Part shown: positions 1,505 through 52,833 of the stretch, piece after piece | Numbering within the stretch: the stretch's first letter is position 1 | Layout of the letters: each line of letters starts with the position of its first letter | NCBI RefSeq assembly: GCF_037126465.1 | Contig: NC_088203.1 | Span: forward strand, 88,412,668-88,476,667 | Reading direction: 5' to 3' | Origin: Ornithodoros turicata | Taxonomy: Eukaryota > Arthropoda > Arachnida > Ixodida > Argasidae | DNA length: 64,000 nucleotides | Notes under the pieces: generated by a model | What the model was told of the DNA's origin: nothing | Database searches by the model: none | The model's input: the letters and a program-made list of their open reading frames with translations, nothing else | Program-made: the position numbers and the translations under genes

Positions 1505-1579
1505 CGTAGAAGCTTTGACTTCTTGCCGACCTTGGTCTAGCAGACCTTTCCTTTTAATAAATGTATATCCCCCCCCCCC
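1505..1579 (+). mobile_element. 3' end of a non-LTR retroposon (module I, C-tailed)
   Basis: Shows the module I order: stem-loop at about 1523-1542 (TGC, GACC, loop, GGTC, GCA with internal loop C/TA), then GACCTTTCC, AATAAATGTATAT and a C run at 1569-1579. No coding sequence remains, so this is a heavily 5'-truncated copy. Its 5' boundary was not resolved. Confidence 0.65.
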
Positions 1580-4969: not shown

Positions 4970-5276
4970 TGTTAGTGTTTATTTTCTTCTTTCTTTCTTT
5001 CCTTTCGTTTTGTTTCTTTTTGTTTCTGTTTCCTTTTCCTTGCTTTTGTTTCTTGTTTTCTTTCTCTTTCCTTTCTTTGTTTCGATTCCCCCTTTTTTCT
5101 TTTTCTTTTTCCTTCCTTTTCTTTTTGATTCCCCTTTTTGTTTTTCTTTCTCCTTCCTTTTCTTTTTTGTTCTCCCCTTCCCCCTTGTTCCCTTTTTTGT
5201 CGGAATAGCAAGCCGGCTCTTTGCCTGGCTAACCTTTGCTTTCTTTTTTTCTTAATAAACATATCCCCCACCTCCT
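4970..5276 (+). mobile_element. 3' end of a non-LTR retrotransposon (module I), element F
   Basis: A long T/C tract (4970-5200) is followed by the module I hairpin (AGC-C-GGC, loop, GCC-TG-GCT, about 5209-5231), AACCTTTGC, AATAAACATAT and CCCCCACCTCCTC. The same polypyrimidine-hairpin-AATAAA-C order ends element B, whose ORFs are complete. The open frames across this tract on both strands are composition artefacts. I saw no RNase H remnant upstream, so the copy retains only 3' UTR. Confidence 0.75.
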
Positions 5277-5688: not shown

Positions 5689-6737
5689 GGGGGGGGGGAT
5701 ATAGGTTTATTGCAAAACAAAACAAAAAACACGAAAGAGGGGAAAGGTTAGCCTGGCTCCAGCAGCCGACTTGCTATTCCCGCTTACAAAAAGGAAAAGG
5801 GAGAAAAGGAAAAATAAAGTGAAAGAAGAAAAAAGATAGACAAATCGGAAAGAGCGAAAGAAGAGGCGCAGTCACAGGCTCAGCGCGAGCCTTGTGTCGG
5901 TAAGGAAGCGTACGAGTTCCCTTCCGACGCGCCACTGAATGGGGCGTTGCAGAGGGCCCAGTAGCGTTGCCAGTGTGACCTCCCTGAGCCCTAGGGCAGC
6001 TTGCCGCTCCATCAGAGTGGCACGGGGAGCGGCGAACAGGCGACAGTGGAGGAGTAGGTGGGAGGTGTTGCCCTCGGTAGAGCAGGCTGCACATGTAGGG
6101 GTGTCAAGCGTGTTGAGTTGGAAGAGCCGTGTTGGCGTTCGAGCCACGCTTAATCGAAGACGGTGGATAACGGACGCCTCCCTCCTCGTGATGTTTGGGG
6201 GAGGGACGTATTGCATTTTTGGGTCGATGGAGTGCAGAAATGTGTTGGGCGAGATGGCACGTTCTGTGAAATCTTGGACACAGCGAGAGCGCAAGCGACG
6301 TATTTGGAGCAGGCAGGCAGACATTGAAAGCGGGATGCTGAGACTCAAGGCAGCCGTGGTATGGGCACGTTTCGCAGCAATGTCGGCACGGGTATTTCCG
6401 GGCAACTGACTGGGTACCCACTGGAGCCGTACGCTGTGGCCGGAAGCCAAGAGCTCGTTGTATCTGGCGAGTACAAGCGTGCGGAGATCGCAAATAGCAC
6501 TGCACCGGTACGGCGCGAAGGTCTCCAATGCTGACTTGCTGTCCGTGAAGATGGACCACGAGTCGGCCTGTGAACCGGATATGGCGTTGAGCGCTTCATA
6601 GATGGCTGTCAGTTCCGCTTCGGTGGATGAAGTTTCATGCGGCAGCTTGAAAGTCTGCGTAGTATCGCTGTGAGGTATGTAGAAAGCTGCAGACGACGCG
6701 CCGTACACAACCGAGCAATCTGTGAAAATTCATTGAA
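5689..6737 (-). mobile_element. Element D: 5'-truncated non-LTR retrotransposon in ORF1 of E
   Basis: Flanked by the 11-bp duplication AATTGTGATGA (5678-5688 and 6738-6748). In its own sense it runs from 6737 to a 10-nt C tail at 5689-5698. It carries the RNase H end of ORF2, a pyrimidine-rich 3' UTR and the module I hairpin (AGT-C-GGC, loop, GCC-AG-GCT, near 5735-5757), then AATAAACCTATAT. The C run is absent from the other flank, so it came with the element. Confidence 0.9.
5872..6737 (-). pseudogene. ORF2 C-terminal fragment: RNase H and zinc-finger tail (element D)
   Basis: The frame is open from the truncation point to the stop at 5872. RNase H motifs are visible: FTDCS (first Asp), STEAELTAIYEAL (Glu), IFTDSKSALE (Asp) and LPGNTRAD (Asp). 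The usual WVPSHIGLPGN block reads WVPSQLPGN, so the conserved His-Ile-Gly is missing and the enzyme is probably inactive. A CAAC...HLLLHC zinc-binding motif follows, then a LATLLGP-type tail shared with elements B, C and G. Endonuclease and RT domains were lost by 5' truncation. Confidence 0.85.
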
Positions 6738-14036: not shown

Positions 14037-14093
14037 GGGGGAATCTATTTATTTTCGAGGAAAAGTCAGCCAGAAAGGGCGGCTTGCTATTCC
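14037..14093 (-). mobile_element. Very short module I retroposon end
   Basis: On the minus strand: GGAATAGCAAGC, stem-loop AGC-C-GCC...C-TG-GCT, GACTTTTCC, AATAAATAGATT and a C run. The similarity stops right after the hairpin, so the copy is only about 60 bp. Loose direct repeats (AATTTTCAGTG/AATTCCTCAGTG) flank it. Confidence 0.6.
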
Positions 14094-15099: not shown

Positions 15100-16022
15100 T
15101 GTTCTGAAAACGGTGATGTTACCGGCAATGTTATCTGCTCTGCGGTACATCCCTTCGTCGACACCAAGAGCGTGGAGTATCCTATCGGATAGTAAGTCAG
15201 CCTTGGAGGTCCTGGCATCGTATTCGCCCAAAGTTATCAACGACATCTACACGGGGATCCTTTGCCTGCACCGCTATGTTGTCGTCTCTAGGGCACAGTG
15301 TGTGGTTCCAGTGGATTTCTGGACATGTTGGTATCTCCGGGAACGCCCACTGTTCGTTCTAGGATACTTTGTATCAGTTGCTCGCCGATTCTGCAGCCAG
15401 GTGAACTCGTGCAGCTGGGTCTGTCACTTCTCTCCTGCTTACCTCGTCTGTCTGCCGGCTAACCATTCGCCGATACTGCACTCAGGCCTCTCTCCAAGGT
15501 GCAGTCAGGACGAACTCTTTTCTGCGATGGATTGACCCCACGATGCCTCACACACTGGTAGGCCACTACCCCAGGGAGGAAGAGTCCATGCTCCACAGGC
15601 TTCGATTGAATGTGGCGCGGACTCCACTGCTTCTCTATAAGATGTGCCAGCTTTCGTCACCCAACTGCCCCACCTGTCATGCTGAAGGAGACATTCCGCA
15701 CCTGCCGCTCCACTGCAACCGTTACCGCCAACATCGTCTTCGCCTACGGTCGCGCATCGCTCGCCTCAGTATTTCGGACTTTTCCCTAGCTACGCTGCTA
15801 GGCCCCACACAACACAGTCAGGTGACAAAGGCACTTGTTCAGTTCCTGCGGATCTGTGGCCTTCTGGGTGAACTGTGATCAATTTCGTGGTTGTTTTCCT
15901 ATTTTTGTTTGTTTGTTTTTATCTTCTTTCTTTTTTTTTTCTTTGCTGCGAATTGCGAGCCGCCGTAGCGCAGGCTAGCCTTTCCAACCTTTTTTTTAAG
16001 TATAACAAACATATCCTCCCCC
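15100..16022 (+). pseudogene. Element G: RNase H end of a non-LTR ORF2 plus module I 3' end
   Basis: The first frame (15113-15535) carries SILSDSKSALEVL, the RNase H Asp motif, then loses homology. A different frame (15543-15878) carries SMLHRLRLNVARTP, the CPTC...HLPLHC zinc motif and SLATLLGP...VTKALVQFL, the same C-terminal tail as element B. At least one frameshift therefore separates them. After the stop come a T/C tract, an AGCCGC/GCGCAGGCT hairpin (about 15958-15976), GCCTTTCC, AACAAACATAT and CCTCCCCC. The 5' truncation point was not resolved. Non-functional. Confidence 0.8.
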
Positions 16023-21760: not shown

Positions 21761-22230
21761 GGGGGGGGATATATTTATTAGACGAAAAGGAAAAAAAGAA
21801 AACGGGGAAAGGTCAGCCAAACGGGACGTCGGCTTGCTATTCCAGAAATAAGAAATAATAATAAATAAATAAAAAGAAAAGATAAGAATTAAAGAAAGAA
21901 AGAAATAGGAAGGAATAAGAAAGAATTAAAGGAAGAAAATTAAGAAATAAGAAATAAAGAAAAAGAATTTGGAAATAACGAAAAACTAACAGATGATCAA
22001 AGAAGGATGAGGTAGATTAATGACAAAGATGACAAAAAAAAGATGACTAACAAACGGTGAAGGAATGATGAGATGAATCACAGAAGAAGAATGAGATTTC
22101 ACGACTGAGTTCACAGGCTGTTCATCAGACCTGAATCTCTCAAGAAAGTCAGAACTGCTTTGGTCACAGACCGCTGTGTGTGATCTCGTACTGGGCCGAG
22201 CAGAGTGGCCAGAGAAAAGTCCGGATTGGT
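21761..22230 (-). mobile_element. Element I: 5'-truncated non-LTR retrotransposon (module I)
   Basis: Flanked by TTGRTAGCGG (21751-21760 and 22231-22240, one mismatch). In its sense the last codons of ORF2 are present at 22225-22111 (DFSLATLLGP, VTKAVLTFLRDSG, stop), then a 250-nt pyrimidine-rich 3' UTR, the module I hairpin (AGC-C-GACG, TCC, CGTT-TG-GCT), AATAAATATAT and an 8-nt C tail. Confidence 0.8.
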
Positions 22231-23875: not shown

Positions 23876-24035
23876 GGGGATACATGTTTATTTGGAAAAG
23901 AGGAAAGGTCAGTCATACGCAGGGTCGACTTGTATTTCGCTCGAAAGAGAAACAACTGTGAAAAGGAGAGAGAAAAGGAAGAAACAAGAATAGCAGGAAA
24001 ATGTGTACTAACAAGTGGTCGTCAATACATGGACC
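23876..24035 (-). mobile_element. Element J: module I retroposon end
   Basis: On the minus strand: pyrimidine-rich tract, ACAAGTCGACC...GTATGACTGACC (outer stem AGT/ACT with internal loop C/TG), CTTTCC, AAATAAACATGTAT and CCCCC. The outer pair AGT/ACT is a compensated change relative to AGC/GCT. The 5' boundary is uncertain. Confidence 0.65.
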
Positions 24036-24538: not shown

Positions 24539-24667
24539 TGTGGAAGACAGGACAGAGAGCCTTAGGTATGAACCCGTTTAATGGTAGAACAGTAAGAGAA
24601 GAAAAGGATCACGCGATGGAGCCATTGGTCGTCGTCTTCGGAATGGGCAATGTGGCAGGTTTCTACA
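24539..24667 (-). repeat. 3' LTR of the BEL/Pao element (129 bp)
   Basis: Begins TG and ends CA on either strand reading (TGTGGAAG...TTTCTACA on plus). Identical by eye to 30033-30161 over all 129 bp. Unusually short for this group. The pol stop codon (24663-24665) overlaps its first bases. Confidence 0.95.
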
Positions 24668-26957: not shown

Positions 26958-29022
26958 GGATTTCGGCTACAAGCGTTAGTGCCTTCCTTTTGGATACCGG
27001 GTTCTGGTTGTGCTCTTGCGACAGGGACTTAATCGGCAGTGACAATACGTCCTTCTCTTGATCCCATGTCACTCCTAGTACTTTGGTAGTGTTGTTGATC
27101 AGAATGGCGTTCGGCTCGTTCTTAAAGATGTCACGGAGTTTTGCGCTGTTGGAACCCCATTTCTGCAATGTCATGGATGCCTTGGCGAAGATGTCCTGAA
27201 GTTCTCGATACGTCTGACAGGCATCCTCTTCGTTAACTGCACCCGTTATGACGTCGTCTACATAGATGGCGTCTGTCAGTTGCTCGACGGTTGCGGGGTG
27301 TTCTTCCGCAACACAACGGAGATGGTGACGTAATGTTGCTGCTAGGAGAAATGTGCTGGGAGCTGTCCCGAACGTCACCCTTGTCATGCGCCATGTCTCG
27401 ACGTCAGGCAATGGCTGATCCGACGTTGGTGGTGTAGAGTACCATAGGAAGCGGAGCGCATCACGGTCTTCCTGGCGAATGGCGATTTGAAGGAAAGCCT
27501 TTTGGACGTCGGCAACTAACGCAATAGGATGGAGGCGGAAGTTCAGGAGTAGGCTGAGTATGCTCGGGTTGAGGTTCGGTCCGGGATCGAGGTTGTCGTT
27601 CAGCGATCGTGTGAAGTCGTCATGCGAAGAGGCATCAAACACGATCCGGACCTTGGTTGTTATCCTGTCCTCCCGAATTACGGCATGATGAGGCATATAG
27701 TAAATATGAGCTTGGTCGTTTTTGTGGGCATCATGCGATACTCGTTCTGCCACACCAGAGAGTAGGTATTCGCGTATGGCGGTGTCGTACGTGGCGGCTA
27801 GATCGGGAGATTTCAACAGTTTCCTGGTGACTTGCGTCAAACGTCGCTCTGCTGTTTGTCGGTTAGGTTCCATGGAGACGTTTGCGCGCCATGGTAGCGA
27901 CACCACATATCGTCCATTCTCCAGCTTAATGGAATCTTCAAATTCTTCCAGTACGTGACTGTCTTTCTGTGTTTCGGTGGCCGAGATGCCGATACTGTCC
28001 AAGGTCCATATACGATCCAGTAGTGTGTGGAGCTCTCCTGAGCATTGGGATACAGTGTTGAGCACAGCGATTTGGTGACAACTAGTCGTCTTGACGGAAT
28101 ATGCTGGCGAATATGGTCCCTGTAACGTCCAGCCGAGAGTGGTCTCAACGGCTTGTACTCCTTGGTGTAGGTGGTGCGTTCGACCGGTGGCGAAATCCCA
28201 ATAGTGGTCGGCGCCGATCAACAGGCTGATTGGGGCAGGATCGTCTGGAGCGGTAGTATCAGCGAGCACAAGTCCATACGTCTTCATTTTTTCCGTTATT
28301 TCCGTTGACGGAGCGTCAAGAACCTGCGAACAGATTCGCTCGACTACCAGCGCAGTGATGGTTTGTTCTTCTATCGATGAATTGCCGAGTATATGAAGCT
28401 CGACGACGTTGACTGGCTGGGGGCGACTCACAGCGTGCCCGAAGGATCCTATCGAGATAGTTTCGGTATGAAGATGCTTGCAGCGCAGTGCATTGGACAG
28501 TCCGGTCGAGATGAACGTTCGCTGGCTGCCGCCATCGAGGACTAGTCGCGCGTGCAGGGCAATGGTGGATCCTCGGCAGCGTGCAGTTGCGGTCTGAAGA
28601 AGCACTCTATGTTTGGACGGGACTACTGTAGCCTTCAAGTTAACGGTCTGAGTGGCTTCATTAGGACGAGGACGGTATGAGGGGTCACACATGCTGGATA
28701 CGTGCCTACCAGAGCAAGTTTTACATTTTGGGGTGCCTCTGCAGAGTTTAGCCGAGTGGTTCGGCTTGGTACAGCGGTAGCATCTACGTTCAGCGGCTAG
28801 CATCCGTTTCTTGTCTTGAAGAGGTTTGCTCACGGTACAGTCTGAGGTAAGGTGCGCCAAGCTACTGCAGAAGATACACTTCTCGCGTCTGGTGGTGCTC
28901 TGCAGAGTCGTCAAAGGATCACGAGAGCTTTGTTTGAATCGGGATTGAAATCCGAACCTTAAACCACCATTTCCAGAAGGAGCTTGGAACGTGTGATGGT
29001 GGACCTGCTCTCGGTAAGTTAT
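26958..29022 (-). pseudogene. BEL/Pao zinc knuckles, protease and reverse transcriptase
   Basis: In frame with gag after the TAG. Three CCHC boxes come first (CIFCSSLAHLTSDC, CYRCTKPNHSAKLC, CKTCSGRHVSSMC), then the aspartic protease site LVLDGGSQRTF (DGG where DSG or DTG is usual) and RT motifs IVFDASSHDD, VADVQKAFLQI and the YVDD catalytic box. The frame is lost at about 26958, after ALTLVAEI; the expected sequence resumes in another frame and a few bases appear to be missing. Roles are processing, capsid RNA binding and cDNA synthesis (family knowledge). No function expected from this copy. Confidence 0.9.
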
Positions 29023-29973
29023 CTAATTTCCCAGAAACGTTAAGAGCTTTGAAAGCGCTTTCGTGTGGAAGTCCTGTGGCGACGACTGATCCGTATCCCC
29101 GGTGGACTGATCCGTGTCCGTGTTTTCGCCGAGAATGCGTTTAAATTGTAAGGCGAGGTCCGTAGGGATCGCGCGCAGTAGAATAGGATATAGCATCACA
29201 GAATAAGATTTAATTCTAACGCCTAGGCATTCCAGTCCACGACGGTGCGCTTGAACAGAGTCGTACAGACTACGAAGTTGTGGGACCTGTCGGCTTGATT
29301 TGACAGGTTCGACGTCTGCAAGACTTTTCAGGTGATCTTCGATAAGAGCAGAGTCGGTCCCAAAGCGATCACGGAGAAGACTGATGGCTGTGTTATACGT
29401 CGCTGCCGTTATTTGTAAGCCACTAATTGCGTTTGCAGCGGGACCTTCCAAGGCAGCCATCAAGTAGTTCATCTTATCGCCGTCGGCGAGAGTGACATTG
29501 TTATGAACGATAGATTCGAAACGAGTCCAGAATTGCTGCCATTTGCCTTTCTGTCCATCGAATTTGACGAGATCAAGCGTAGGAAGGCGAAGGGTTCGAC
29601 GCGGAGGAATGGCAGGAGCTTCGTTGGTATTCTGAGAGGAATTAACTGTGTGAGCAGCTGGAGGCGCCCGTGATGGGGAGTAGTTTGCCGTCAAGAAAAC
29701 GTTGGCACGAAAGAGGGTTCTCCGAATCTTATCTTCGTACTCGAACTGTTTATCGTATTCTTGTTCAGATTCCTCTTCAGTAAAAAGGGGTGCGAGGGCA
29801 TTGTCGACTTCGCGTAACGCATCGTCGATTTCGCGAAGGCGTGAACAGTTCTCGTCAATGTCATAGCGATCAGTGAGGGGATCGGTAGCGAGGAGCTGCT
29901 GGAGCTCGTTGACGACCGTAGTGGCTTGCGTTCGGAGGACTTTGCGTCGTTTGATCAAGTGTGAGCGGTCCAT
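29023..29973 (-). pseudogene. BEL/Pao gag, N-terminal part
   Basis: From the first ATG (29973, MDRSHLIKRRKV) the frame encodes about 316 residues: a helical, charged N-terminus (coiled-coil-like LREIDDALREVDNAL), then a Gag block with LRLPTLDLVKFDG and WQQFWTRFESIVHNN, the DUF1759-type signature of BEL/Pao Gag. The frame ends at TAG (29023-29025), but the same frame stays open for the next 2.07 kb, into the zinc knuckles. The stop is either a nonsense mutation or a readthrough signal; its place before the knuckles favours mutation. Confidence 0.85.
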
Positions 29974-30013
29974 ACCTGTGTGAGGGACGATCGATGATGA
30001 CAGCCCTGTTGCC

Positions 30014-30031
30014 TTCTCGTTCACGGCACCA
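30014..30031 (-). promoter_or_regulatory. Primer-binding site of the BEL/Pao element
   Basis: One base inside the 5' LTR the minus strand reads TGGTGCCGTGAACGAG, starting with the TGG expected to pair with a tRNA CCA end. The tRNA was not identified. Confidence 0.75.
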
Positions 30032-30548: not shown

Positions 30549-30750
30549 AGGTGGTGACGAAACCCGGCTTGCCGGGAGGCAAGGAGGTTAACGACGACGA
30601 CGAAACTGTGCCGACGTAGGATTTTTCTGCTCCGTAGTCATTCTTACCAGAATCCCTGTTTCTGCCTCTACTACTGCTGAATTTCCCCCTCCGAGGGTGG
30701 ACATAAGCAGGTCTTGCCCTGCTGCGCGACGCAGAAGGGGCTGCGTGCTC

Positions 30751-32079
30751 ATGGAAGTGGTCGTGAACGAAGATCATGGGTCGTCAACGGAGGAGGTCAG
30801 TGCCGGCGACACTGATTCGTCCCTTAGCGGCAGTACGATCCTCCTTCGGAAGCGGATGAGCGATAGCCCCGCGCTTATCTCCTCTGACGCTGACGATGAT
30901 GAACGCCCCTTCCAAGATGTTGCCAAAAGGGCACGAAAGACTGCCCACCCCAGCCATGGACGGCCTCCCAAACTTGAGGGAACCACAGTGTTGTTCGCGC
31001 CACTGGACCCGGCGTCCAAACTCGCAAACCTGAATCATCTCAAGCTCTCCGAATTTCTTGCCTCTGAGCTGCCAGGAAGGATTAAGGAAATACGACCCAA
31101 CTATGCAAAGAACATCCTTGCTGTGGAAGTCATTTCCCTACCGGCAAAAGCGCCCCTCTTGAGGCTCGACAGGATCTGTAGTGTTCCTGTCCGCGCCCAC
31201 GAACCGCGCCCCCTCAACTCGTGCTACGGTGTTATCACGGATATCGATGCCTCGCTCTCTGACGATCAGATAAAGGAGGCTATCAGGTCTGAGCCTCCGG
31301 TTCTTGCAGCAAGGCGAATACGGAAAGACGCAGGAGCTGTGAGACTCACTTTTCTCGGGTCACACAGACCGAAGGACATCAGCTTCCATCTCCTGACAAT
31401 GCGAGTCAAGGACTACTTACCGCGCGCCCCACAATGCCGCAATTGTTTGAGGCACGGCCACGTAGCTGCGTGCTGCAGCCGGAGAAAGGTTTGCGCAACC
31501 TGCGGAGCGTCCCATGACTGTGCTGTCTGCCCGCAGAATGACCCCCTGTGCGTCAACTGTCATGGGAAACACCCAGCGACATCAAGCGAATGTCCCAAAT
31601 TCAAGCTGCAAAGACGCATCGCCAGAGAGCGCTCGCGTTCTAGCAGCAGCTATAGAGCGGCCAAGGAACAAGTCCTAAAGAAGGATCACCGAAGGAACCG
31701 CAGACGAAGACGCCGAAGATCTGTGTCGCGGCCACCAGCCTCTACGCCTGCCGCCGCAGCCCCGCCGAAGCAACTTGCCTGGAAGGACAGTCACTTCCCA
31801 CCACTACCCCCCCACGACAGTGCGCAAGCACCACCGAACTCTGCACCCAAGAGCTGCACGGAAGCGACACACTCCCATGTAGCCCGCCGCGCAACTCCCG
31901 CTTCATCGTCTTGCACCCCAGCTGACATGCAATCAGTGATAATTAGGCTGCTTTTCGTGGCACTAAAGGCCATAGTCTCTGCGTGCCCCGAGTGTAACGC
32001 GCTCACTGAAGTCCAATCGATCCTTCAACTTGAAAACGCAATCGCCCCCTTATTGCCAACCGAGCCGGTTGGGCGCTAA
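30751..32079 (+). CDS. ORF1 protein of element B (gag-like, CCHC)
   Basis: 442 residues from the first ATG in frame (MEVVVNEDHGSS). An acidic/Ser-rich N-terminus with a basic patch precedes a central domain similar in layout to ORF1 of element E (VLFAPLDPASK...AARRIRKD). Cys/His boxes follow near residues 230-290: CRNCLRHGHVAAC, the Cys/His stretch CATCGASHDCAVC and CVNCHGKHPATSSEC. Next come an Arg/Ser-rich stretch (RRRRRRSVSR) and a Pro/Ala-rich tail. Expected to bind element RNA and form the RNP (family knowledge). No stop or frameshift is visible. ORF2 begins 39 nt downstream in a different frame, so it needs reinitiation or internal entry. Confidence 0.9.
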   Translation: MEVVVNEDHGSSTEEVSAGDTDSSLSGSTILLRKRMSDSPALISSDADDDERPFQDVAKRARKTAHPSHGRPPKLEGTTVLFAPLDPASKLANLNHLKLSEFLASELPGRIKEIRPNYAKNILAVEVISLPAKAPLLRLDRICSVPVRAHEPRPLNSCYGVITDIDASLSDDQIKEAIRSEPPVLAARRIRKDAGAVRLTFLGSHRPKDISFHLLTMRVKDYLPRAPQCRNCLRHGHVAACCSRRKVCATCGASHDCAVCPQNDPLCVNCHGKHPATSSECPKFKLQRRIARERSRSSSSYRAAKEQVLKKDHRRNRRRRRRRSVSRPPASTPAAAAPPKQLAWKDSHFPPLPPHDSAQAPPNSAPKSCTEATHSHVARRATPASSSCTPADMQSVIIRLLFVALKAIVSACPECNALTEVQSILQLENAIAPLLPTEPVGR

Positions 32080-32118
32080 GCCCCGGCTGTGTGACGGCAT
32101 CGCTCCCTGGACGGCGAA

Positions 32119-35100
32119 ATGGCGGTGCCAACAATAGTGCAGTATCAGACGACAACAATCTTCCAGTGGAATTCAAGAGGCCTTCAATCCAAAATATCAG
32201 ACTTTCGCCAGTTTGCGTGGCGGCACAAGTTCCACCTCATGTGCATCTCGGAATGCGGGCTCCGAGCGGATTTCCGTCTGTCGAATTATATCACATATGT
32301 CTCACAACCAAGCGGAACAAAAAGTCGGGCAGCCATCTTCATCCGCTCGGACATACCAGCTGTGCAGAGGAACATTGTGGCAACGGGCGCAGGGGAATAC
32401 GTCTGCTGCTCGATTCGAGTGGGCTCCCGGGACCTCACAGTTGTCTCCCTCTACATACCACCTGCTGTCCCATATGATGTGAGCGACCTGGAGAACATCC
32501 TGGACAGTGTTCCTACGCCGTATGTCTTATGTGGAGACTTTAACGCCCATCATACCATCTGGGGCAGCGTGCGGTCCGACCCGCGAGGACAGCGGCTTGC
32601 TGCGCTGCTCGAAGAGAGGAACCTCCACATCCTTAACGACGGTTCCCCGACCTTTGTACAGTCACCACACCGATCGTCGTGCCTGGACCTGACGGTTGTG
32701 TCTGCTTCGGTTGCGCGGCACTTCACCTGGACTGTTGGCGCTGATATGCTTGGCAGTGATCATGCCCCGGTATTAATCAACATTCGCGGAGCACCTGGGA
32801 CACAGCTCAAGCGCGCAGTCAAGAGGACCGACTGGCAACGCTACAGGGCTGCCGTTGATTCCACCTTCCCAGACCCCGTACTTGGGAACGCCAGCCACGG
32901 CGACTTCTGCCGCTTGGTGGTCGGCGCCACACACTGTGCCACGAGAGTGTTTCACCTTCCCACCAAGTTCTTAGCGGTCGACGCGGAGTACGCCAGATTA
33001 CGTGCGATCCGGCGGAGAGCAGAGAGGCGGGCCCGGACCACGCATCTCTTGGCCCATATGCTGGAAGCGCGACGGATACAAAAAGCCGTTCATAGACACA
33101 TCTGTAAATTGGCCAGAAATCACTGGAGGAACTTTGCTTCCTCCCTATCTCCGCGAACACCTCTGTCCCGACTATGGATGGTACTCAGAGGACTAGCCGA
33201 ACCTGTTACCCAGAGAGACCCGTTCCGATCACTCTCCGTGGCCACAGGACGCTCCGAATTACAGCTGGCAGAGGAGTACTGCGGCAGACTTACGTCCCAA
33301 CCCCCCGACGGCTCAGCGTCAGCCCGTGACATCCCGGTTGTCCCGGAACCACCAACTGAGCCCTCTCTGGATCAACCGTTCTCGCTAATGGAACTGGAAT
33401 CGGCTTTGCGTCGCTCACCAATGCACACATCCCCCGGGGCAGATCTCGTCACCTACAAGGCTCTCCACAACCTCCCGCTGCGTGGACGACAGCTGCTTTT
33501 GCAGATACTCAACGAGTCTTGGTGCGCCGGCGCTGTGCCCCAGGAGTGGAAGGTGGCGGTTGTTGTTCCCATCCTGAAACCCGGAAAATCACCTCACGAC
33601 ATAGACTCCTTTCGGCCGATAGCCCTCACTAGCTGTGTGGCGAAGATCATGGAGCGCATGATTCACGCACGGTTGAGCTGGTACTTTGAAACCACGAGGT
33701 ACTTCCCCGAAGCCATGGCGGGCTTTCGGCAGGGAAGATCGTCCATCGACAGCGTGGTTGATGTTGTGTCTAGCGTTCAACAAGCACAGTCTGAAGGCCA
33801 ACTCACAGCCGCTGTTTTCCTGGACGTCATGAAAGCCTATGACAGCGTCCTCCACAGCGCGGTTGTCGCAACGCTGCAAGAGTCGGGTGTCGGGGCCCGC
33901 ATGACGGCGTGGATCCGCGACTTCCTGTCAGATCGGTCTCTATTTGTGCGCACCACGCAAGGTGACACAGCCCCGTTCCCTGTCCATCGCGGCGTACCGC
34001 AAGGCAGTGTGTTAAGTCCGCTCCTATTCAACCTCATCATGGCTTCACTCCCGATGCACTTGTCTGAGCGCACCAACATTACAATTTACGCTGACGACAT
34101 TTGCATATGGGCCTCTGCCATGCGACGTGACGCCATTCAACATCGCCTACAAGACGCCCTCAACACCATCGTGTTATACCTTGCCGATAGGGGACTACGT
34201 GTCTCCCCGAGCAAGACCGTCGGTATGGCGTTTACCGGGCGGTCATTCGCCCGCTACCCTCTTCATGTCTCTGGAACCCCTCTCCAATTCGTGCCGCACT
34301 GCAAATATCTCGGCGTAATCATTGACAAACGCCTGTCATGGTCCCACCACATCAAGGCACTCTCGGCCAAGACGTCCAACTTTGCGAACGTCCTGCGACG
34401 GGTCTCTGGACTGTCGTGGGGTCCGTCTTGTGACGACCTGCGCCGAGTACACCACTCCCTCGTGTTAGGCCTGCTGCGCTACAGCCTCCCGGTGTTGCAC
34501 GGCCTGAGTAGGACTGGCGAGCATGAGCTCCTAAATATCCAGGCCCGCAGCCTTCGAGTGTGTCTGGGCTTGCCTAAGACGACCGAAACATACTCAGTCC
34601 TTGCGGAGGCACGTGAACCACCTGCAAACATCCTGCGTGACAGGGAGACCCTTCGAGTCTACACGCGGATCCTAACGCAGCACCCCTTCCACTATCTCCG
34701 ACTCATAGGAAGTGACTGCCCCGACTCTGCCTTTGGTGGCGCTGTCGACCGCCTGCGGGTGGTTGTACCCCAGCCCTCTTCTACCGTGTCCTTTGCCCCT
34801 CCTCTGTGGGCCCTCGACCGGCCCTTCGTGTGCTCCACTATCCCCGGCCTTGGGCGAAAGAATGACACTCCTTCCTTTGTCGCACGTCAGCTTGCCCTGG
34901 AGCACCTCTCCACGCTACATGACCAGCGGCTAGCAGTTTACACCGACGGGTCGGTCGTACCTGACAGAGCGAGCGCAGCATTTTATGTGCCCCACGAGGA
35001 CATCGAGCGCACCTTTAAACTTGCAAACGAGACGTCATCCACGGAGGCTGAACTCTTTGCCGTGTACGCGGCGCTTGAGCACATTTCCATCTCGCCACAG

Positions 35101-35799
35101 GGAAACTGGTCCATCTTTACAGATAGTAAGGCAGCGTTGGAGGTCATCAGCTCACACGGATCCCAGACGATCAACGACCTCCACGCAATGCCTATCTCGT
35201 CATACAACTCCGTTCTCGCCTCCGGTCATACCGTCTGGCTCCAGTGGGTTCCCAGCCACATAGGCCTCCCTGGGAATACCCGTGCCGACGCTGCTGCAAG
35301 GCGCGCACATAGCTGTGACAGCCCCATCGCAAACCTACCGCTCACGGCATCAGCTTGCCACCTTAAAATCCGTCGATGGTCTGCCTCTGAAACCCGCCAC
35401 TTCATTGCAGACGCTATTCGATGCAACACATTTCTTCGAGCCATCGACCCCGCGATGCAACTTTACCCCTCCCAACACCTTACCAGGGCCGAGGAAACCC
35501 TCCTTCATCGCCTCCGCCTTAACGTCGCCTACACTCCGTCACTCCTGCACAAGATGGGCAGACGCGGCAACGCAAACTGCGATGCCTGCGGCGCCATCGC
35601 TGACGTAGCCCACCTCCTGCTAACGTGCCCGACGTTCTCGGCGCCCCGTGCCGCCCTCGCCCGACGCCTCCAAGCCTTGGGCCACCACCCCCTCTCGCTC
35701 GCTACACTCCTCGGGCCTGTCCCGCGCCCTGGGCAACGGGATGTTACCAAGGCACTCTTCGAGTACCTCAAGGCCACAGAAATGATGACCGCCCTCTGA
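32119..35799 (+). CDS. ORF2 protein of element B: endonuclease, reverse transcriptase, RNase H
   Basis: 1,226 residues from ATG 32119. The endonuclease (about 10-220) has QWNSRG, SECG, CGDFNAHHTIWG and GSDHAP. The RT (about 440-720) has FRPIALTSC, FLDVMKAYDS, GVPQGSVLSPLLFN, the YADD box near residue 657 and YLGVIIDKRLSW. RNase H (about 938-1065) has VYTDGS, STEAELFAVYAAL, IFTDSKAALE and WVPSHIGLPGNTRAD, giving all four acidic residues and the His. A CDAC...HLLLTC zinc motif lies near 1155, before the SLATLLGP tail. It nicks the target, primes reverse transcription on it and removes RNA. Intact by sequence. Confidence 0.95.
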   Translation: MAVPTIVQYQTTTIFQWNSRGLQSKISDFRQFAWRHKFHLMCISECGLRADFRLSNYITYVSQPSGTKSRAAIFIRSDIPAVQRNIVATGAGEYVCCSIRVGSRDLTVVSLYIPPAVPYDVSDLENILDSVPTPYVLCGDFNAHHTIWGSVRSDPRGQRLAALLEERNLHILNDGSPTFVQSPHRSSCLDLTVVSASVARHFTWTVGADMLGSDHAPVLINIRGAPGTQLKRAVKRTDWQRYRAAVDSTFPDPVLGNASHGDFCRLVVGATHCATRVFHLPTKFLAVDAEYARLRAIRRRAERRARTTHLLAHMLEARRIQKAVHRHICKLARNHWRNFASSLSPRTPLSRLWMVLRGLAEPVTQRDPFRSLSVATGRSELQLAEEYCGRLTSQPPDGSASARDIPVVPEPPTEPSLDQPFSLMELESALRRSPMHTSPGADLVTYKALHNLPLRGRQLLLQILNESWCAGAVPQEWKVAVVVPILKPGKSPHDIDSFRPIALTSCVAKIMERMIHARLSWYFETTRYFPEAMAGFRQGRSSIDSVVDVVSSVQQAQSEGQLTAAVFLDVMKAYDSVLHSAVVATLQESGVGARMTAWIRDFLSDRSLFVRTTQGDTAPFPVHRGVPQGSVLSPLLFNLIMASLPMHLSERTNITIYADDICIWASAMRRDAIQHRLQDALNTIVLYLADRGLRVSPSKTVGMAFTGRSFARYPLHVSGTPLQFVPHCKYLGVIIDKRLSWSHHIKALSAKTSNFANVLRRVSGLSWGPSCDDLRRVHHSLVLGLLRYSLPVLHGLSRTGEHELLNIQARSLRVCLGLPKTTETYSVLAEAREPPANILRDRETLRVYTRILTQHPFHYLRLIGSDCPDSAFGGAVDRLRVVVPQPSSTVSFAPPLWALDRPFVCSTIPGLGRKNDTPSFVARQLALEHLSTLHDQRLAVYTDGSVVPDRASAAFYVPHEDIERTFKLANETSSTEAELFAVYAALEHISISPQGNWSIFTDSKAALEVISSHGSQTINDLHAMPISSYNSVLASGHTVWLQWVPSHIGLPGNTRADAAARRAHSCDSPIANLPLTASACHLKIRRWSASETRHFIADAIRCNTFLRAIDPAMQLYPSQHLTRAEETLLHRLRLNVAYTPSLLHKMGRRGNANCDACGAIADVAHLLLTCPTFSAPRAALARRLQALGHHPLSLATLLGPVPRPGQRDVTKALFEYLKATEMMTAL

Positions 35800-35960
35800 A
35801 GCACAGGCGGCAAGCCTCACCGCCCGCAGCACATCGTTCCCATCGCGGCTTCTCCCGCATCTGTTTTTTCCTCTTTCTCTTTCTTTTTTTTAAGGAGTAG
35901 CAAGCCGGCACTTGCCTGGCTGACATCTCCTTTGTGTGAATAAACATATACCCCCCCCCC
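35800..35960 (+). promoter_or_regulatory. 3' UTR of element B with module I hairpin and C tail
   Basis: A T/C-rich tract, then stem AGC-C-GGC (35903-35909), loop ACTT, GCC-TG-GCT (35914-35921), GACATCTCC, AATAAA (35939-35944), CATATA and C10. There is no A tail. Likely the recognition site for the element's own RT (inference from conservation among copies). Confidence 0.75.
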
Positions 35961-36036
35961 GGCTTGCCGTTGTTGGCCTCACTTATGTGAGCTGCGTCAC
36001 GACTGTAGCCACGACGAGATGAAATGATGTGATAAC

Positions 36037-37238
36037 CAGGGTGTCGAACCGAACCCGAACCCGAACCGAAAACCGCACCCGAACCGTTATTTTTGCCGGA
36101 ACCGAACCCGAACCCGAACCGAAATTTTCGGAACACTGCTGAACCCGAACCGGAGCAGAACCATAAAAATAATAGCGGTAACCGGTTCGCAACAAAACGG
36201 TTCGGACATAGAAGTCAGCACAAGAGTTCCTTTTTATCCCCGAACGAAGACACATCGGTATCATCATCACGCGCCTATATCATGGATTTCAGAAATTTTC
36301 ACCTACCAGTCAGACGACGACGTATAGTAAGTATACTTTCAGCATCTTTTTAACATGTTGAAGCGCAGTTGTCCTTGTGAGCGCCGCGGCTGGCCACGCA
36401 CGCGGTGATGCGGCGTCTACTCTTCAGAGACGAGGTGCCACGCGGACGAATGCAACAGGAATGGAGTAGGCCAGTTATGTAGCTCTACACGACGAATATG
36501 TGATCAAATAAGCGCCCAAGATTTCTTTTTACACGTGAGCAGTAAAAATTAAACAAGTCAGAAACATGAGAAGTGGAGAAGGGACGTACGCAGAACGGTG
36601 CCTGTTTGATTGGTCGTGGTTTGAAAAGTAAATGTGGTTCTGCTTATTGGTAGTGCAGTTGTGTCGTGATACATTGCCTTTGTGAGGTGGATTAACTAGT
36701 ACACTGCTGTGAGCTCGGACAGACTAAGGCTGGCAGGCTTATTTTCGACAAGCTTCAGTACGGTTTCAGATCGATTCACGCTGCGAAGGCAGTGTGCCGG
36801 CAAGTACTGTCGTCTATCTTACGCTGTCCATCTTATTAGGCTTCGGTTAAGTTTATCTTGCTGGCACTGTGCGTAAAAAAAGAGATTTTGGGAACAGAAA
36901 GTAGCGGGACAACACCGCTTCATCAGCGTGGACTCTATTTGCAATAAGTGTTCATCCATTTCTTATTTCTCTCGCTAAAGAGCTACCTCACAGCTAAAGA
37001 CGTCAATGCAGACAACAGCAGTAAGCTATTAGCCACGCATTTCCTGATAAAAGCAGTTTTATGGAACATATAAAACGGAAGCGTTGAACCGGTTCGCGAA
37101 CCGGTTCGGGGCTGCGAACCGGTTTGCGAACCGGTTCGGTTTTTGGCGTGGCCGAACCGGAACTGAACCGGAACGAAATCAAAACAACGCGAACCCGAAC
37201 CCGAACCGAACCCGTATTTTTTGCGGTTCGACACCCTG
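36037..37238. mobile_element. Non-autonomous hAT transposon, 1.2 kb, with GAACCC-rich ends
   Basis: Perfect 15-bp terminal inverted repeats CAGGGTGTCGAACCG and an exact 8-bp duplication GTGATAAC (36029-36036 and 37239-37246). The subterminal regions are tandem GAACCC/GAACCG repeats in inverted orientation at the two ends. No transposase frame exists inside, so it depends on another element. It sits in the 3' UTR of element A. Confidence 0.9.
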
Positions 37239-37287: not shown

Positions 37288-38121
37288 TCACAGCCAGTAG
37301 TCCGAGCAGTACTCCTTTGAGCGAGGCCAGATTCCTGGAGAAGCTGCGAATTTTTGAGAGTCTTTCTTAGAAAGAGCCTCTGGGTTGTAGGACATCATCC
37401 ATCGTATACAATTCCTGCAATGGCCAAGGTATTTCTCCCGCACCGCAGCATATGCAGAGCAATGAAGCAGGATGTGTTCGATAGTCTCAATTTGCTGACA
37501 ATGTATGCAGTTTGCGTTGTCTAGAGAGCCAATCTTGAATAATTGTGATTTAGTGAAAGAGCTTCTTGTTCGCAACCTGAAGAGCAGGTTTTGGGTACTG
37601 CGGGAAAGTCCTTTCAACGGGAGATCAAGTCGATGATTTTCCAGGATGTCCCGGATGTGTGCATAAGATCTCATTGTTGACCAATTTTCTCTCGCTGTCT
37701 CCCGGTGTTGGCAACTAGGGCTAATGCTGTGGTGTGCAGCAGAGGCTAGTTGGTCCGCTTTTTCGTTTCCATTGATGCCGACGTGGGACGGGATCAATTG
37801 CAGGGAGATGCCTCCACCGATTGACTTGTGTTGGGCACATGATGTTCTGATACACCGGGCTAGAATGCTATTGCATGTGGTGTTCATCACCATTTGGAGA
37901 GCGCTATACGCGAATCCCTGAGGATGACAGCTTTGGTAACAACAATAGCTCCCCCGCCAAACGCACAGCCAGCAAATGATGTGCATCAAAGTCATTTTCC
38001 TTACTTTAATAGAGTAAAAGCATGATGGTGCGCCGGTACGCAGGCCAATGACGCCGGACCCATTTTCCGTGAATACAGCGAGTGGGTGTGGCCTTACGCC
38101 CACGAGGCGCACACGACACAA
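37288..38121 (-). pseudogene. ORF2 C-terminal fragment of element A (RNase H and zinc motif)
   Basis: The open frame carries LQLIPSHVGINGNEKAD (RNase H His and Asp), then NLLFRLRTRSSF and CIHCQQIETIEHILLHC (zinc motif), as in other non-LTR ORF2 ends. It differs clearly from elements B, C and D, so it is another clade or family. Upstream of about 37900 the expected Asp-Ser motif reads in another frame, suggesting a frameshift. 5'-truncated and non-functional. Confidence 0.75.
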
Positions 38122-39029: not shown

Positions 39030-41256
39030 AATATATATTTATTGAATGGAAAGGTCTGCCAGACCAAGGTCAGCATGCTATTCCATTTAAAAAAATCCAA
39101 AGAAAACGAAGAATAAATAGAAAGGAAAGGACGAATAGGAAAAGGTGAGTCTCCGTAAAAAGGAAGAAAAACGAAAACGAAAAGAAAAGAAAGAAGGGAA
39201 AAGGAAAAATATAGCAACGAAGAAAGAAGAAAGAAAAAAAAAGAAGAAAGAAAACGGAGGTGAGACTCCTGGAGCGCGCAGCTCAGAGCTTTGAGGCCAG
39301 GCCAGTGCACTTCAGAAAGTGCAGTAAAGCAGTTGTGACGGCCCACTGTTGGTGCTGAGGCACAGGGCCAAGAAGTGCGGCCAGCGTGAGCTGGTTGTGC
39401 CCGAAACGTTCGAGGCAGCGGAAAAGGGTAGCTCGATGGTTGGTGTACTTGGGGCAGGTCAGCAGGAGGTGCGATGTGTCCGCAACCACTTCGCAAGCAT
39501 CGCAGAGGCCCGAGATCTGCCTCCCCATCATGCGCTGGACCGGTGGCGTGTATGCCAAGTTGAGGCGCAGTCGGTGGAGGAGTGTCTCTTGTGGCCTTTG
39601 GAGACGTCGTGGTGGGGAGAACTCCACCGCCGGGTCGATGGAGCGAAGCAAGTCGTTGAAACGGGCGGATTCTAGAATGAATCTCTGCGCCTCTTGGGCG
39701 GCCCAGCGGCGGATCTGGATGCGGCAAGCCGAAGGGGTGAGCGGTATGCGCGCCGCGGCGTCGGGTTGTTCGTGTGCGCGCCTGGCCGCAGCATCTGCTC
39801 GATCGTTCCCGCCGAGGCCAATGTGGCTGGGTATCCACTGCAGACATATATTGTGCCCGGAAGCAAGGGCGGTGTTGGCTAGGGACATTGCCATTGTGTG
39901 TAGGTCGTCCGTTGTTTTGGTGCAGTATGAGTCGAGTGTCTCCAGTGCCGCCTTGCTGTCCGACAGGATCGTCCAGGTTCCTGGGGGCGATGTCGTGATG
40001 TGCCGGAGGGCCGCGTGGATTGCGAAGAGCTCGGCTTCGGTGGAGGAGGTGGTATGGGAGAGCCTGAAAGCTTGCTCGATGTTACCTTGAGGAACGTAGA
40101 TGGCTGCAGTGGCCCCATCAAGTGTTACGGATCCGTCTGTATAGATCGCCTGACGCTGTTGATGATGCGTTGATAGGTATTCGAGGACGAGCTGACGCGC
40201 AACGGCTAACGGCGTCTCCCTCTTTCGGCCTAGGCCAGGGACGCTGGTCAATACCTGGGGCTTGGCGAGGGCCCATAAAGGAGGGGCGTAGGATACACCT
40301 GAGGAGCGATCCGGGAGGATAGCCTTAAGACGGCGGACGGCGCCGCCAAAGGCCGATGCGGGGCGGGCATCCTCAATGGACAGCAGGTAGTGGCAAGGGT
40401 GCTGCGTGACAAAGCGCGCAAAGATACGGAGCGTCTCTCGGTCCCGTAGAATATGCACGGGCGTCTCTTGCGCCTCCGCAAGTACGGTGTAGGTTTCAGC
40501 CGTGCGTGGCAGTCCTAGGCATACCCGGAGGCCGCGCGCGTGGGCATTAAGGAGGTCTCGCTCACCCGTTCTACTGATCCCGTGGAGCGCTGGGAGGTGG
40601 TACCGTAGCAGCCCCACCACAAGTGCGTTATGGACGTGTCGGAGGTCACTGCACGAGGGACCCCACGACGCTCCAGAGATGCGCCGTAGCACGTTCACGA
40701 ATTTCTTCGTCTTGGCAGAGAGGGCCTTGATGTGCTAGAACCATGACAGCCGTTTGTCTACGATGACCCCAAGATATTTGTAGCGGGGGACCAAATCAAG
40801 TGGCGTTCCGGCGACGTAGAGTGGGTAGTTTTTAAATGAGCGGTTGGTGAACGTCATGGCGACTGTTTTGCTTGTGGAGACACGTAGGCCTCTGTCGGCG
40901 AGATATATCTCAATGACGTCGAGGGCTTGCTGCAGGCGCCGCTGAATCGCGTCTCTCCGGGTGCCTGAAGTCCAAATGCAGACATCGTCTGCATAAATTG
41001 TGATCTTGACGTTGGCAGGTAGGTGTGCGGGGAGTGAGGCGATGACAAAGTTGAACAGCAATGGACTCAACACACTGCCCTGCGGCACCCCGCGGCTTAC
41101 CGGGAAGGGAGCTGTGTCGCCGTGAGCAGTGCGCACAAAAAGGGTGCGATCAGATAGGAAGTCCCGGACCCAGGAGACGGCTCGGACGCCTGCACCAGAT
41201 TCTTGCAGAGTTGCGACGACGGCACTGTGGAAGACGCTATCGTATGCTTTCATGAC
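39000..41256 (-). mobile_element. Element C: 5'-truncated non-LTR retrotransposon, (CA)n-tailed
   Basis: Flanked by the 11-bp duplication GGCCTTTAGTG (38989-38999 and 41257-41267). In its sense it starts in the RT domain and ends with a pyrimidine-rich 3' UTR, the module I hairpin (TGC-T-GACC, TT, GGTC-TG-GCA, about 39055-39075), AATAAATATATATTCCC and 14 CA units. The CA tail lies inside the duplication and so belongs to the insert. Confidence 0.9.
39283..41256 (-). pseudogene. ORF2 fragment of element C: RT (from motif A), RNase H, zinc tail
   Basis: Begins at KAYDSVFHSAVV and continues with GVPQGSVLSPLLFN, the YADD box and YLGVIVDKRLSW. An in-frame TAG at 40735-40737 follows, then the same frame resumes with the equivalent of element B up to RNase H (IYTDGSVT, STEAELFAIHAAL, ILSDSKAALE, WIPSHIGLGGNDRAD) and the CDAC...HLLLTC zinc motif. 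Only one nonsense codon breaks the frame. Related to B but clearly a different family. Confidence 0.9.
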
Positions 41257-46150: not shown

Positions 46151-46285
46151 ATTAAAGTCTATACTTTGCATACTTGTCCAGTGTCTTTCTTTTTTCATTT
46201 CTTTCCTGGGAATAGCAAGCCGCCGTAGCGCAGGCTAACCTTTCCCTCGTATTTTTTAATATAATAAACATACCCCCCCCCCCCC
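46151..46285 (+). mobile_element. Module I retroposon end, element K
   Basis: T/C tract, GGAATAGC, hairpin AGCCGC/GCGCAGGCT (about 46218-46237), AACCTTTCC, AATAAACATA and a C run (46273-46285). Its hairpin is the same as that of element G, so K and G belong to one subfamily. No coding part is left. Confidence 0.75.
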
Positions 46286-50815: not shown

Positions 50816-52833
50816 CGCAAAATGTTCAAAAACAGATCTCAAAAGGGTGAAAGATTAGGCTAGTTGGTAAGTCATTAGACGGTGATGGTGATGAGATAAC
50901 GAAGAAAAGGGGGGATTGTAATTTCATGGGATTATGCTAGTAGACCGTTGCTAACGCCACCGTGGACCTACCGTATCTATCGGGACCAATGGCAGCGTGG
51001 ATGACTCTTGAATCTTATCAATTCATCGGGCGCGGTATATACGGTACTTCAGATTCCCCGTTATCACCGGCATACTGACGCTTGCAATTACGAGCAAGGA
51101 AGCACGACTGAAACTAGGGCGCCTCAGTACTGAGGCACCTGTTACGAAAGGGAAGAAGCGACCGAGACTTTCAAACGTTTTACTGACCACAAAACAGAAT
51201 TGCAGGGCGCGCCAAGGGCGCGAGCTCTCAGCTCCTTCCTTGTCTTTCCTCAACAGCACTCTAAGTGAAACGACACGGAAGCGACATAGATGGTAAGTTT
51301 ATGCACCATCAATGCGCCTTTACACAATAGTAGGAATCCAGACGCAGTCGAAAAAAAAAAAAAAAAACAAGAGTGGGGTCTATTTACATTGGCAAAGTCA
51401 GCGAGAAAAGACAGCTTGCAAAACGGGGGAGGGGGATATGTTTAAAATGCCACAGCGTTTATTTTATTTAGTCCTTAAAAAGAAGGTGCCTCAAGGATTC
51501 TATACGCGATCCTCCTGTTTACGAACGCTGTGCATTTCTGTCAATTTTTGAAGGTCTGCTGAGCCTCCACATGTTTCGATGACGCGGGGAGCGGGTGACG
51601 TAATCATAAGCCCACAAATTGCAATGATGTCATGTCATGTTCTGGAGAGGGCATTCGCCTCCTAGCAACGACGACGGCGTCCAGGAGGGTCACGTGTTGG
51701 AGAAGTCACGTGACGCTCATCGAAAGAAGGGAAAATGAGAGAGATGTCTTCTCCCTCCTTGTGTTTTCTCGAAGGTCGGAGTGGTCGGAGTGTCGGTATG
51801 TCACGTGGGGCTCCGCTAACGGCGGAGTGCAAAAAGTGAGCCCCCTGGAAGATACGAAGGGCAACAACGTTGCCAGATGAGAGCCGGGCGCTCCGTCGGA
51901 GCCTAACATGACGTCAGAGCTCTCAAGAATAAAAGTAGATTTTCTCTAGCTTCCGCATAACGTAGAGACATAACATTTTGCAGGAATGTAAAGTGAGGCA
52001 AGAAGATTTCAGTAATAGAACTTGGTAGGATTCTGAAGAGAAGAGATTTAGTCATTTTAGGCACTTTAATGGTTAAAAAAAGCAAAGTGAAACGTTAGCC
52101 ATACTAGAGGCTTGCTACTCCCAAAAATAAAGACAAACGAAAACAAAAGGAGAAAAAAAAACACACCGAAAACTGTTGAGAATACAGAAGCAGACAGCTC
52201 CTTTACTACAGCGGCATAAGGGGCGATATATGCACCCGAGATTTTTTCTGACGCTCCCTGAATAACGACAGACGGAATTTCTAGACAGGGGTTAAAGTAA
52301 ATTCTATTATCTCTTTTACCCTAATCCGCTTCGCTTGGAGGGGTCGAAAGACATTCGCCCTGCGGCATACTTTTTTCACATTGTACCAAAAACTAAAACG
52401 TGGAATGATCGATGGCAGACGCTAGCTCTGTAAGAATGCTTGTTCGCTGAGTAGTTTGCACCTTGGAGATATCCTTCTTAATATTGAACACGAACTATCT
52501 GCTTGAAATCAATATGTCTGCAAAAATGCGAAGACCCCGGAGTTACGCTTTTCAAAAGGTATTGTCATCCTACGAACTGTCTCACAACTTGCACCGTTAT
52601 CACCGAGACTGCGATGCATCTGCGTCCTGAGGGGGGGATAGGGGAGTACAAAGGTGAATACCAATATACCAATGGTCTTCACGTATTTATATTTGTTCTC
52701 GAAGATATTTATTCAAAAAGGTGCCCCTTGGTTGGTCTGTTCGCTGCATGTTGTGCAAGGTAGCGCAAAATGAAACGTTGGACAAAACGAGACTCTTTTT
52801 TTTTTGCGAACTCTTGCGAATGAACGACACACT
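50816..52833. other. No gene recognised; two degenerate module I-like ends
   Basis: Around 51374-51420 and 52085-52125 (both minus) there are AGCAAGC...GGCT-type hairpin remnants with partial tail similarity. Neither has clear borders. An A run lies at about 51350. Open frames lack domains. Confidence 0.35.

Follow-up and report, generated by a model that had tools for sequence, protein, structure and literature searches.

What does a small hairpin, recurring at the 3' ends of LINEs, do for the elements that carry it? In the window, by which we mean the whole 64,000-nt stretch of Ornithodoros turicata DNA analysed here, an original prediction had placed a 3' stem-loop with AATAAAYATAT and a C tail at about ten places and had assigned it to several retrotransposon families. 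We propose, at a probability of roughly three in four, that this module is a conserved 3'-terminal RNA element of related RNase H-bearing LINEs, which would be bound by the element's own ORF2 protein and placed ahead of a C tail that serves in priming.

The 3' module and its carriers in the window

The copy that anchors this analysis ends a full-length LINE on the forward strand (30575..35957), which has open ORFs and lies between two target-site duplications, CCCGGCTTGCCG at 30563..30574 and its exact 12-nt repeat CCCGGCTTGCCG at 35958..35969. ORF1 (30697..32079, forward strand; 460 aa, from the ORF list) is open and, looked at for CCHC knuckles, has cysteine-rich stretches seen by eye and no Pfam match. 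ORF2 (32119..35799, forward strand) is likewise open and encodes an endonuclease, a reverse transcriptase (RT) and an RNase H (Pfam PF14529, PF03372, PF00078 and PF00075). An APE-type endonuclease, RT and RNase H within a single ORF constitute the layout of the I group, and it is this arrangement of domains that suggests that the carriers may be called I-like. Recent activity of the I, CR1 and L2 clades has been reported in Ixodes scapularis (PMC4748124). Among named proteins, those closest to ORF2 belong to O. turicata itself (62–71% identity); LINEs of the hard ticks Ixodes and Rhipicephalus are 44–47% identical. Because copies with 98–99% protein identity exist elsewhere in the genome, some with frames open throughout (38 of 54,355 candidates scored), the family of the anchor LINE looks young. 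The LINE adjoins long ORFs at 24663-30024 on the reverse strand that by eye resemble a Pao/BEL-type LTR element, and degenerate GAACCC / CGGTTCGG repeats lie near both LINE copies, at 36040-36130 of the window and roughly 300 nt downstream of 37288(-).

The module reads, in order, AATAGCA, hairpin, RACCTTTCC, a pyrimidine spacer, AATAAAYATAT and a run of C. In the anchor copy, all on the forward strand, the 5' strip is AGTAGCA (35896..35902; AATAGCA in most families of the 14-row alignment), a part of the module that had been missing from the earlier list. It is followed by the hairpin (35903..35921; covariance model match 35896-35930, E 9e-10), with outer stem AGCC/GGCT (35903-35906/35918-35921), inner stem GGC/GCC (35907-35909/35914-35916), loop ACTT (35910-35913) and a bulged T at 35917. 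The 3' strip GACATCTCC (35922..35930; GACCTTTCC or AACCTTTCC in most families of the same alignment), the AATAAACATATA motif (35939..35950) and the poly(C) tail (35951..35960), whose last three C double as target duplication, complete the module.

Across families the hairpin has a 4-bp outer stem, AGYC/GRCT or in one family TGCC/GGCA, and a 3–4-bp inner stem (7–8 bp in total), separated on the 3' side by one bulged base that is usually T and sometimes A. The predicted hairpin itself stands, but its drawing, a 3-bp outer stem and an internal loop with C opposite TG, TA or AG, is replaced by a fourth outer C–G pair, present in 14/14 LINE-linked copies, and the 3' bulge. The loop, usually 3–5 nt, differs between families (ACTT, ATAG, CTTG, TCC, TCCT, GCTGG, CTTC, TCTTT, CTAC, ATACC), and a conserved loop serving as a specific mark, of the L2 type or the monocot L1 type, is absent across the families here. 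The spacer from 3' strip to AATAAA is 91% pyrimidine and 4–34 nt long (median 15; n = 74 modules having AATAAAY in the next 60 nt), and the C runs measure 4–20 (median 10; 68 copies from a search that required runs of at least 4). When folded as single sequences, most of 21 module types yield the hairpin as the best or a near-best structure, with the bulge sometimes shifted or absent; for W15958 it is not the best fold, and in the short types G7 and G8 the outer stem alone forms. Folding z-scores for the 21 types range from -0.2 to -4.1, modest as with any short hairpin. Short-hairpin subtypes AGCCCACACCGTGGCT and AGCCTACATCATGGCT were also seen, for example at G000:C1:2475835(-) and at window 52088-52119(-), and a pattern with a base other than G at stem position 5 has 1,095 matches genome-wide.

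All ten places of the original prediction were confirmed, both on reading and by a covariance model at E < 0.01, which added an eleventh, absent from the earlier list, at 52088-52119(-). The model was built from 14 LINE-linked ends; three of the 11 window matches are training sequences, and a fourth, the copy at 39048, is close to the training data through a near-identical family member among the 14. Within the window the module also ends a second LINE family (39048..39082, reverse strand; outer TGCT/GGCA, inner GAC/GTC) behind the LINE ORF 39283-40698(-), a third (5741..5778, reverse strand; AGTC/GGCT, inner GGCT/AGCC, bulged A) behind the ORF 5872-6708(-), and a fourth (15951..15985, forward strand; AGCC/GGCT, inner GC/GC) behind a LINE ORF ending near 15875. 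Truncated copies lie at 46211..46245 (forward strand; covariance model match, with the stem as in 15951), at 21806..21841 (reverse strand; AGCC/GGCT, inner GACG/CGTT; L105 is a LINE of the same family) and at 5204..5239 (forward strand; inner GGC/GCC, loop TCTTT; L026 and L043 are LINEs of the same stem type). Decayed copies were matched at 14059..14091 (reverse strand; E 9.5e-7), at 23902..23936 (reverse strand; E 5e-6) and at 1524..1551 (forward strand; TGC/GCA type, E 0.009, model positions 8-35), and the eleventh copy is itself a short decayed hairpin (52088..52119, reverse strand; E 0.0025). These four, the copies 1505, 14037, 23876 and 52088, score 19.5–34.9 bits; in copy 1505 the 5' strip lies outside the model match and the fourth outer pair is broken, with C opposite A.

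Genome-wide the module is abundant. The exact tail AATAAACATATCCCC occurs 3,766 times in the 1.07-Gb genome against once for the reversed pattern, far above chance. The flank pattern AATAGCAAG(N15-37)CCTTTCC, which constrains just the first two stem letters, has 6,861 matches against 11 reversed. Among the matches listed, 76 of 100 tail-chosen places have a 5' strip match with at most three mismatches, nine of them judged on reading to be chance, so that about two-thirds of tail-chosen copies retain the hairpin; the remaining ones are mostly truncated within or ahead of it. For the flank-chosen set 96 copies were used, four of the 100 listed being overlapping duplicates of places already counted. 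An Rfam scan of the window at gathering thresholds gave no match, the exact module pattern had none in viral contigs and prokaryote genome contigs, and no relatives of ORF2 were found in viral contigs. The open-licence literature, searched at title and abstract level, returned no description of the module, which does not establish that it is unpublished, and nothing relevant on poly(C) tails, which is not evidence that they are undescribed.

Family divergence and covariation of the stem

Is the likeness of these 3' ends a matter of recent relationship? The module lies within 700 nt in 18 of 27 LINE ORF 3' ends examined, 52–362 nt past the aligned ORF end, and these 18 ends represent 12 families with the module behind their ORF, so it is indeed common to several retrotransposon families. 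When ORF2 ends were chosen by protein match regardless of tail, six of seven had the module, and in the seventh, L107, the sequence ends short of the place. Over the last 206 residues the 12 families are mostly 34–60% identical (63–206 aligned residues), the closer pairs being L051/L040 at 87% and W15958/L065 at 74%. Recent common ancestry of all copies, the alternative named with the original prediction, does not explain the sharing, because of this divergence and of the protein-tree tests described below. Since the carriers form one related group, inheritance with retention of the module is its most likely history, rather than acquisition by unrelated elements.

No module was found within 700 nt in the other nine of the 27 ends. 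L008 has one about 800 nt on, L107 stops before the expected place, and the other seven are 32–38% identical to ORF2 in best ORF2 matches. The covariance model had no match downstream of L026 at 2571(+), 36% identical over 520 residues, and no module was found behind the window ORF 37288-38121(-). As evidence that the module marks one clade this is weak, several of the nine ends being decayed or cut. The ORF at 37288-38121(-) appears to be a fragment of a more distant LINE, its RNase H side being 22–37% identical to the others.

In the closest pair, L040 at 1430(-) and L051 at 3954(+), the hairpin interiors are of different types, GGC-GTGCT-GC and GAC-CTTC-GTC; the difference may reflect fast change or an occasional exchange of 3' ends. 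The GACATCCATC stem of L001, L002, L009, L015, L016 and L059 was rejected as a separate family, since these copies align with one another over up to about 810 nt. The sequence after the C tail (CCAGAGTAC) is common to L001, L002, L009, L015, L016 and L099 and is not found in L059. Given the shared post-tail sequence and the long alignment, the GACATCCATC copies are most likely a LINE 3' fragment inside another amplified repeat. This host repeat has GC-rich ends and a stretch that by eye resembles a tRNA with A and B boxes; ARAGORN called no tRNA in the five of six GACATCCATC-type loci scanned.

The stems differ between families and yet pair, as had been predicted. On a tree built from the RNase H-side C-terminal protein of the 12 families, data independent of the modules, 80 of 84 stem cells are canonical (null mean 71.3, p 0.0004) and 58 family-pair cells covary (null mean 9.2, p 0.0002), with the pairs chosen partly from the same data and four of the 12 stems represented by the commonest genomic core of the family instead of the LINE-linked copy. 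With the actual, partly decayed copies the figures are 78 of 84 canonical cells (p 0.003) and 57 covarying cells (p 0.001), and bootstrapping gave p 0.003–0.007 on 20/20 trees (first stem set; near the floor of 300 replicates). Parsimony places double changes at pair 1 (A–U to U–A, once), pair 3 (C–G to U–A, once) and pair 6 (G–C to A–U three times and to C–G once), while breaks in the fixed register fall at pair 7 in L065 and W15958 and at pair 5 in L065 and L040. The pairing of the stem is kept by double changes between families; the hairpin is a selected RNA element.

Alignment of the 14 LINE-linked copies points the same way. Canonical pairs fill 94.9% of 98 cells, a value reached in 0/500 shuffles, and slid registers attain at most 49%; weaker measures were matched by shuffles, the number of pairs changed on both sides in 21/500 and the number of pair types in 8/500. 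The alignment leaves out W39028, L103, L104, L043 and L008, whose families or stem types were already present, and L107. G–U pairs are present at pairs 3, 5, 6 and 7, and RNAalifold run without constraint gives the identical fold. When the arms of 53 cores from the 96 flank-chosen copies were aligned from the flanks inward, the largest excess of pairing fell in the one-bulge hairpin register, with observed against expected pairing of 0.91/0.80 at pair 3, 0.79/0.60 at pair 5 and 0.81/0.56 at pair 6. There is no excess at pairs 1, 2, 4 and 7, which hardly vary, and a smaller one at a few further column pairs. A fold-free scan of 105 column pairs ranked pairs 6 and 3 strongest, whether the flank-chosen set or the full pool of 83 cores was used, with some column pairs outside the stem next.

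The covariation that the original prediction had offered as its check thus holds on the protein tree, across tests with p 0.0002–0.007, and not on a tree of the modules themselves. On the latter, built from 86 distinct cores, no pair is significant after correction over the 105 column pairs (best 0.12); pairs 6, 3 and 1 score highest (nominal p 0.002, 0.027 and 0.045), and pairs 2, 4, 5 and 7 give no signal. The test is weak because its tree uses the same few letters, and its result stands. Its cores had passed a flank filter of 7 of 8 letters (6 of 8 gives 101) and still include GACATCCATC-type stems and at least one evident chance core.

Stem changes in sporadic copies look different. A base other than A at position 1 occurs in 419 matches against 56 reversed, and among the matches listed the TGCC...GGCA family dominates; there, sporadic copies of other families retain the old partner and are mostly unpaired at position 1, as at C1:20333113, where position 1 is T and the partner T is unchanged. 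Pairing therefore belongs to families, that is, to their active masters, and does not arise by decay.

Insertion sites, the C tail and the proposed function of the hairpin

Duplications of at least 10 nt flank 24 of 68 tail-chosen copies, compared with 5 in an upstream-reversed control, and at 11 nt the counts are 18 and 2. In 17 of 67 copies, and in 7 of 67 controls, the first non-C base after the tail can be anchored with at least 9 nt. The base at the cut in the left copy is then C in 14 of the 17, versus two of the seven controls (binomial p 6e-7 at a background of 0.24), a result that comes from 17 anchored copies and from a procedure whose weak 9-nt anchors occur in the control too. Of the near-identical L061 and L062, the latter was dropped from this test. 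A C at the cut implies a primer strand that ends in G and is able to pair with the C tail. In 0 of 100 copies do six or more A directly follow the C run, which places the start of copying at the C tail. Among the 24 inserts with duplications of at least 10 nt, seven keep less than 56 nt before AATAAA; copying thus often halts within or before the hairpin, which accordingly acts in the RNA and not in the new DNA copy.

How might the hairpin and the tail work together? The element's own ORF2 protein would bind the hairpin and the strips in the RNA, and binding would bring the C tail to the RT. A primer at the nicked target, ending in one to three G, could then anneal to the C tail; copying would begin within the C run, slip there to leave 4–20 C, and probably stop early in many cases. 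Binding of the hairpin by the RT or ORF2 protein is the most likely reading by analogy with LINEs in which it has been tested (PMC4176376).

More tentatively, and at somewhat less than even odds, we consider that the 3' end may carry a two-part code unlike that of the stringent LINEs described so far, in which the RT reads the strips and the bulged stem and ignores the loop, poly(C) docks G-ended primers, and the tails in turn become targets. If so, the RT of one family might mobilise the RNAs of other families through the shared module. Under the two-part code the C tails of these LINEs would themselves be good targets, so that ends from different families would pile up head to tail at C runs, as in L035. 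At about position 4000 of this locus (G000:C1:8025089) three LINE 3' ends from different families, all truncated, stand head to tail, joined at C runs; modules two and three and the sequence past the final C run all begin AGCA(A/G)G, which may be a micro-homology where they join. A second tail on the same strand, up to 150 nt upstream or 175 nt downstream, was found in 2 of 100 copies and on the opposite strand in none, 32 of the 100 loci having less flank than these distances.

Covariation shows that a fold is selected and does not name its reader, and the hairpin might instead serve 3'-end formation, stability, export, translation or packaging by ORF1, with the RT recognising the C tail alone. 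AATAAA is also a poly(A) signal, and the variable distance from the 3' strip to it would suit such a step. We nevertheless regard this as unlikely, since copying starts at the C tail, as the missing A runs indicate, and since a bulged stem a few tens of nucleotides from the RNA end matches hairpins that, in the elements described in PMC4176376, are bound by ORF2 or required for retrotransposition. Less probable again is a likeness due to recent common ancestry or 3'-end exchange, free of selection on the fold. All carriers are related LINEs, the interiors of L040 and L051 differ as they would after exchange, and the module-tree test is not significant family-wise; against this, most families differ in 40–66% of C-terminal residues while the module is still alignable and re-paired, the test on the separately derived protein tree rejects the view that the two arms changed independently, and sporadic dead copies such as C1:20333113 show unpaired changes. 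That the module is a DNA-level feature, such as a target site, a promoter or an element of replication, and has no RNA role seems to us very improbable: target and C tail do agree at the level of DNA, but G–U pairs in the stems are typical of RNA, and the hairpin is absent from many inserts, so that a finished DNA copy has no need of it.

What does such a tail offer? Definable by covariation in a dozen families of a single genome, it is well suited to the question of how a LINE with RNase H selects its RNA, and it bears on the sharing of machinery in trans between families and on the part of the C tail and the G-ended primer in setting the insertion site. One assembly provides thousands of copies together with open elements that are nearly identical, and annotators of tick genomes gain a short signature of true LINE 3' ends.

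Relation to known LINE 3' ends

The Drosophila I factor, also a LINE with RNase H, begins copying within short 3' repeats, of UAA in its case, where the tick LINEs have a C run. To our knowledge, no covarying hairpin of this kind is known for it.

Among tick retroposons, Ruka, a tRNA-derived SINE of ixodid ticks (PMC3160391), is abundant like the elements described here. A partner SINE with the same tail was looked for as well; ARAGORN called no tRNA in eight module loci, just 68 loci having 1.5–4 kb upstream. In this small sample no SINE partner was found; the 3' end of a monocot L1 lineage is shared with maize and sorghum SINEs (PMC3747384). That lineage has a conserved 3' hairpin with compensatory stem changes between families and conserved bases 3' of the stem, as here, and in both cases the 3' end is far more conserved than the remaining element. 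It belongs to another clade, and its loop, UCU, and flank, CGAG, are conserved as described in that report (PMC3747384).

The closest likeness is with the L2-clade elements UnaL2, ZfL2-1 and ZfL2-2, as far as they are portrayed in PMC4176376: a small hairpin near the RNA end, a short repeated tail, and stem letters that are free as long as they pair. The ZfL2 hairpins are bound by their own ORF2 protein and required for retrotransposition, stem swaps in L2-clade LINEs are tolerated if pairing is kept, and UnaL2 requires one bulged base in its stem, a single bulge being present in the tick hairpin too (PMC4176376). The tail in the tick is a C run, and the LINE group, with its RNase H, is a different one. 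In the L2 clade the loop is specific, the mark read by ORF2 (PMC4176376), whereas here the loop varies and the single-stranded strips on either side of the hairpin are conserved. The tick module belongs to a known kind, the 3' hairpins of stringent LINEs, in a form that conserves the flanks instead of the loop.
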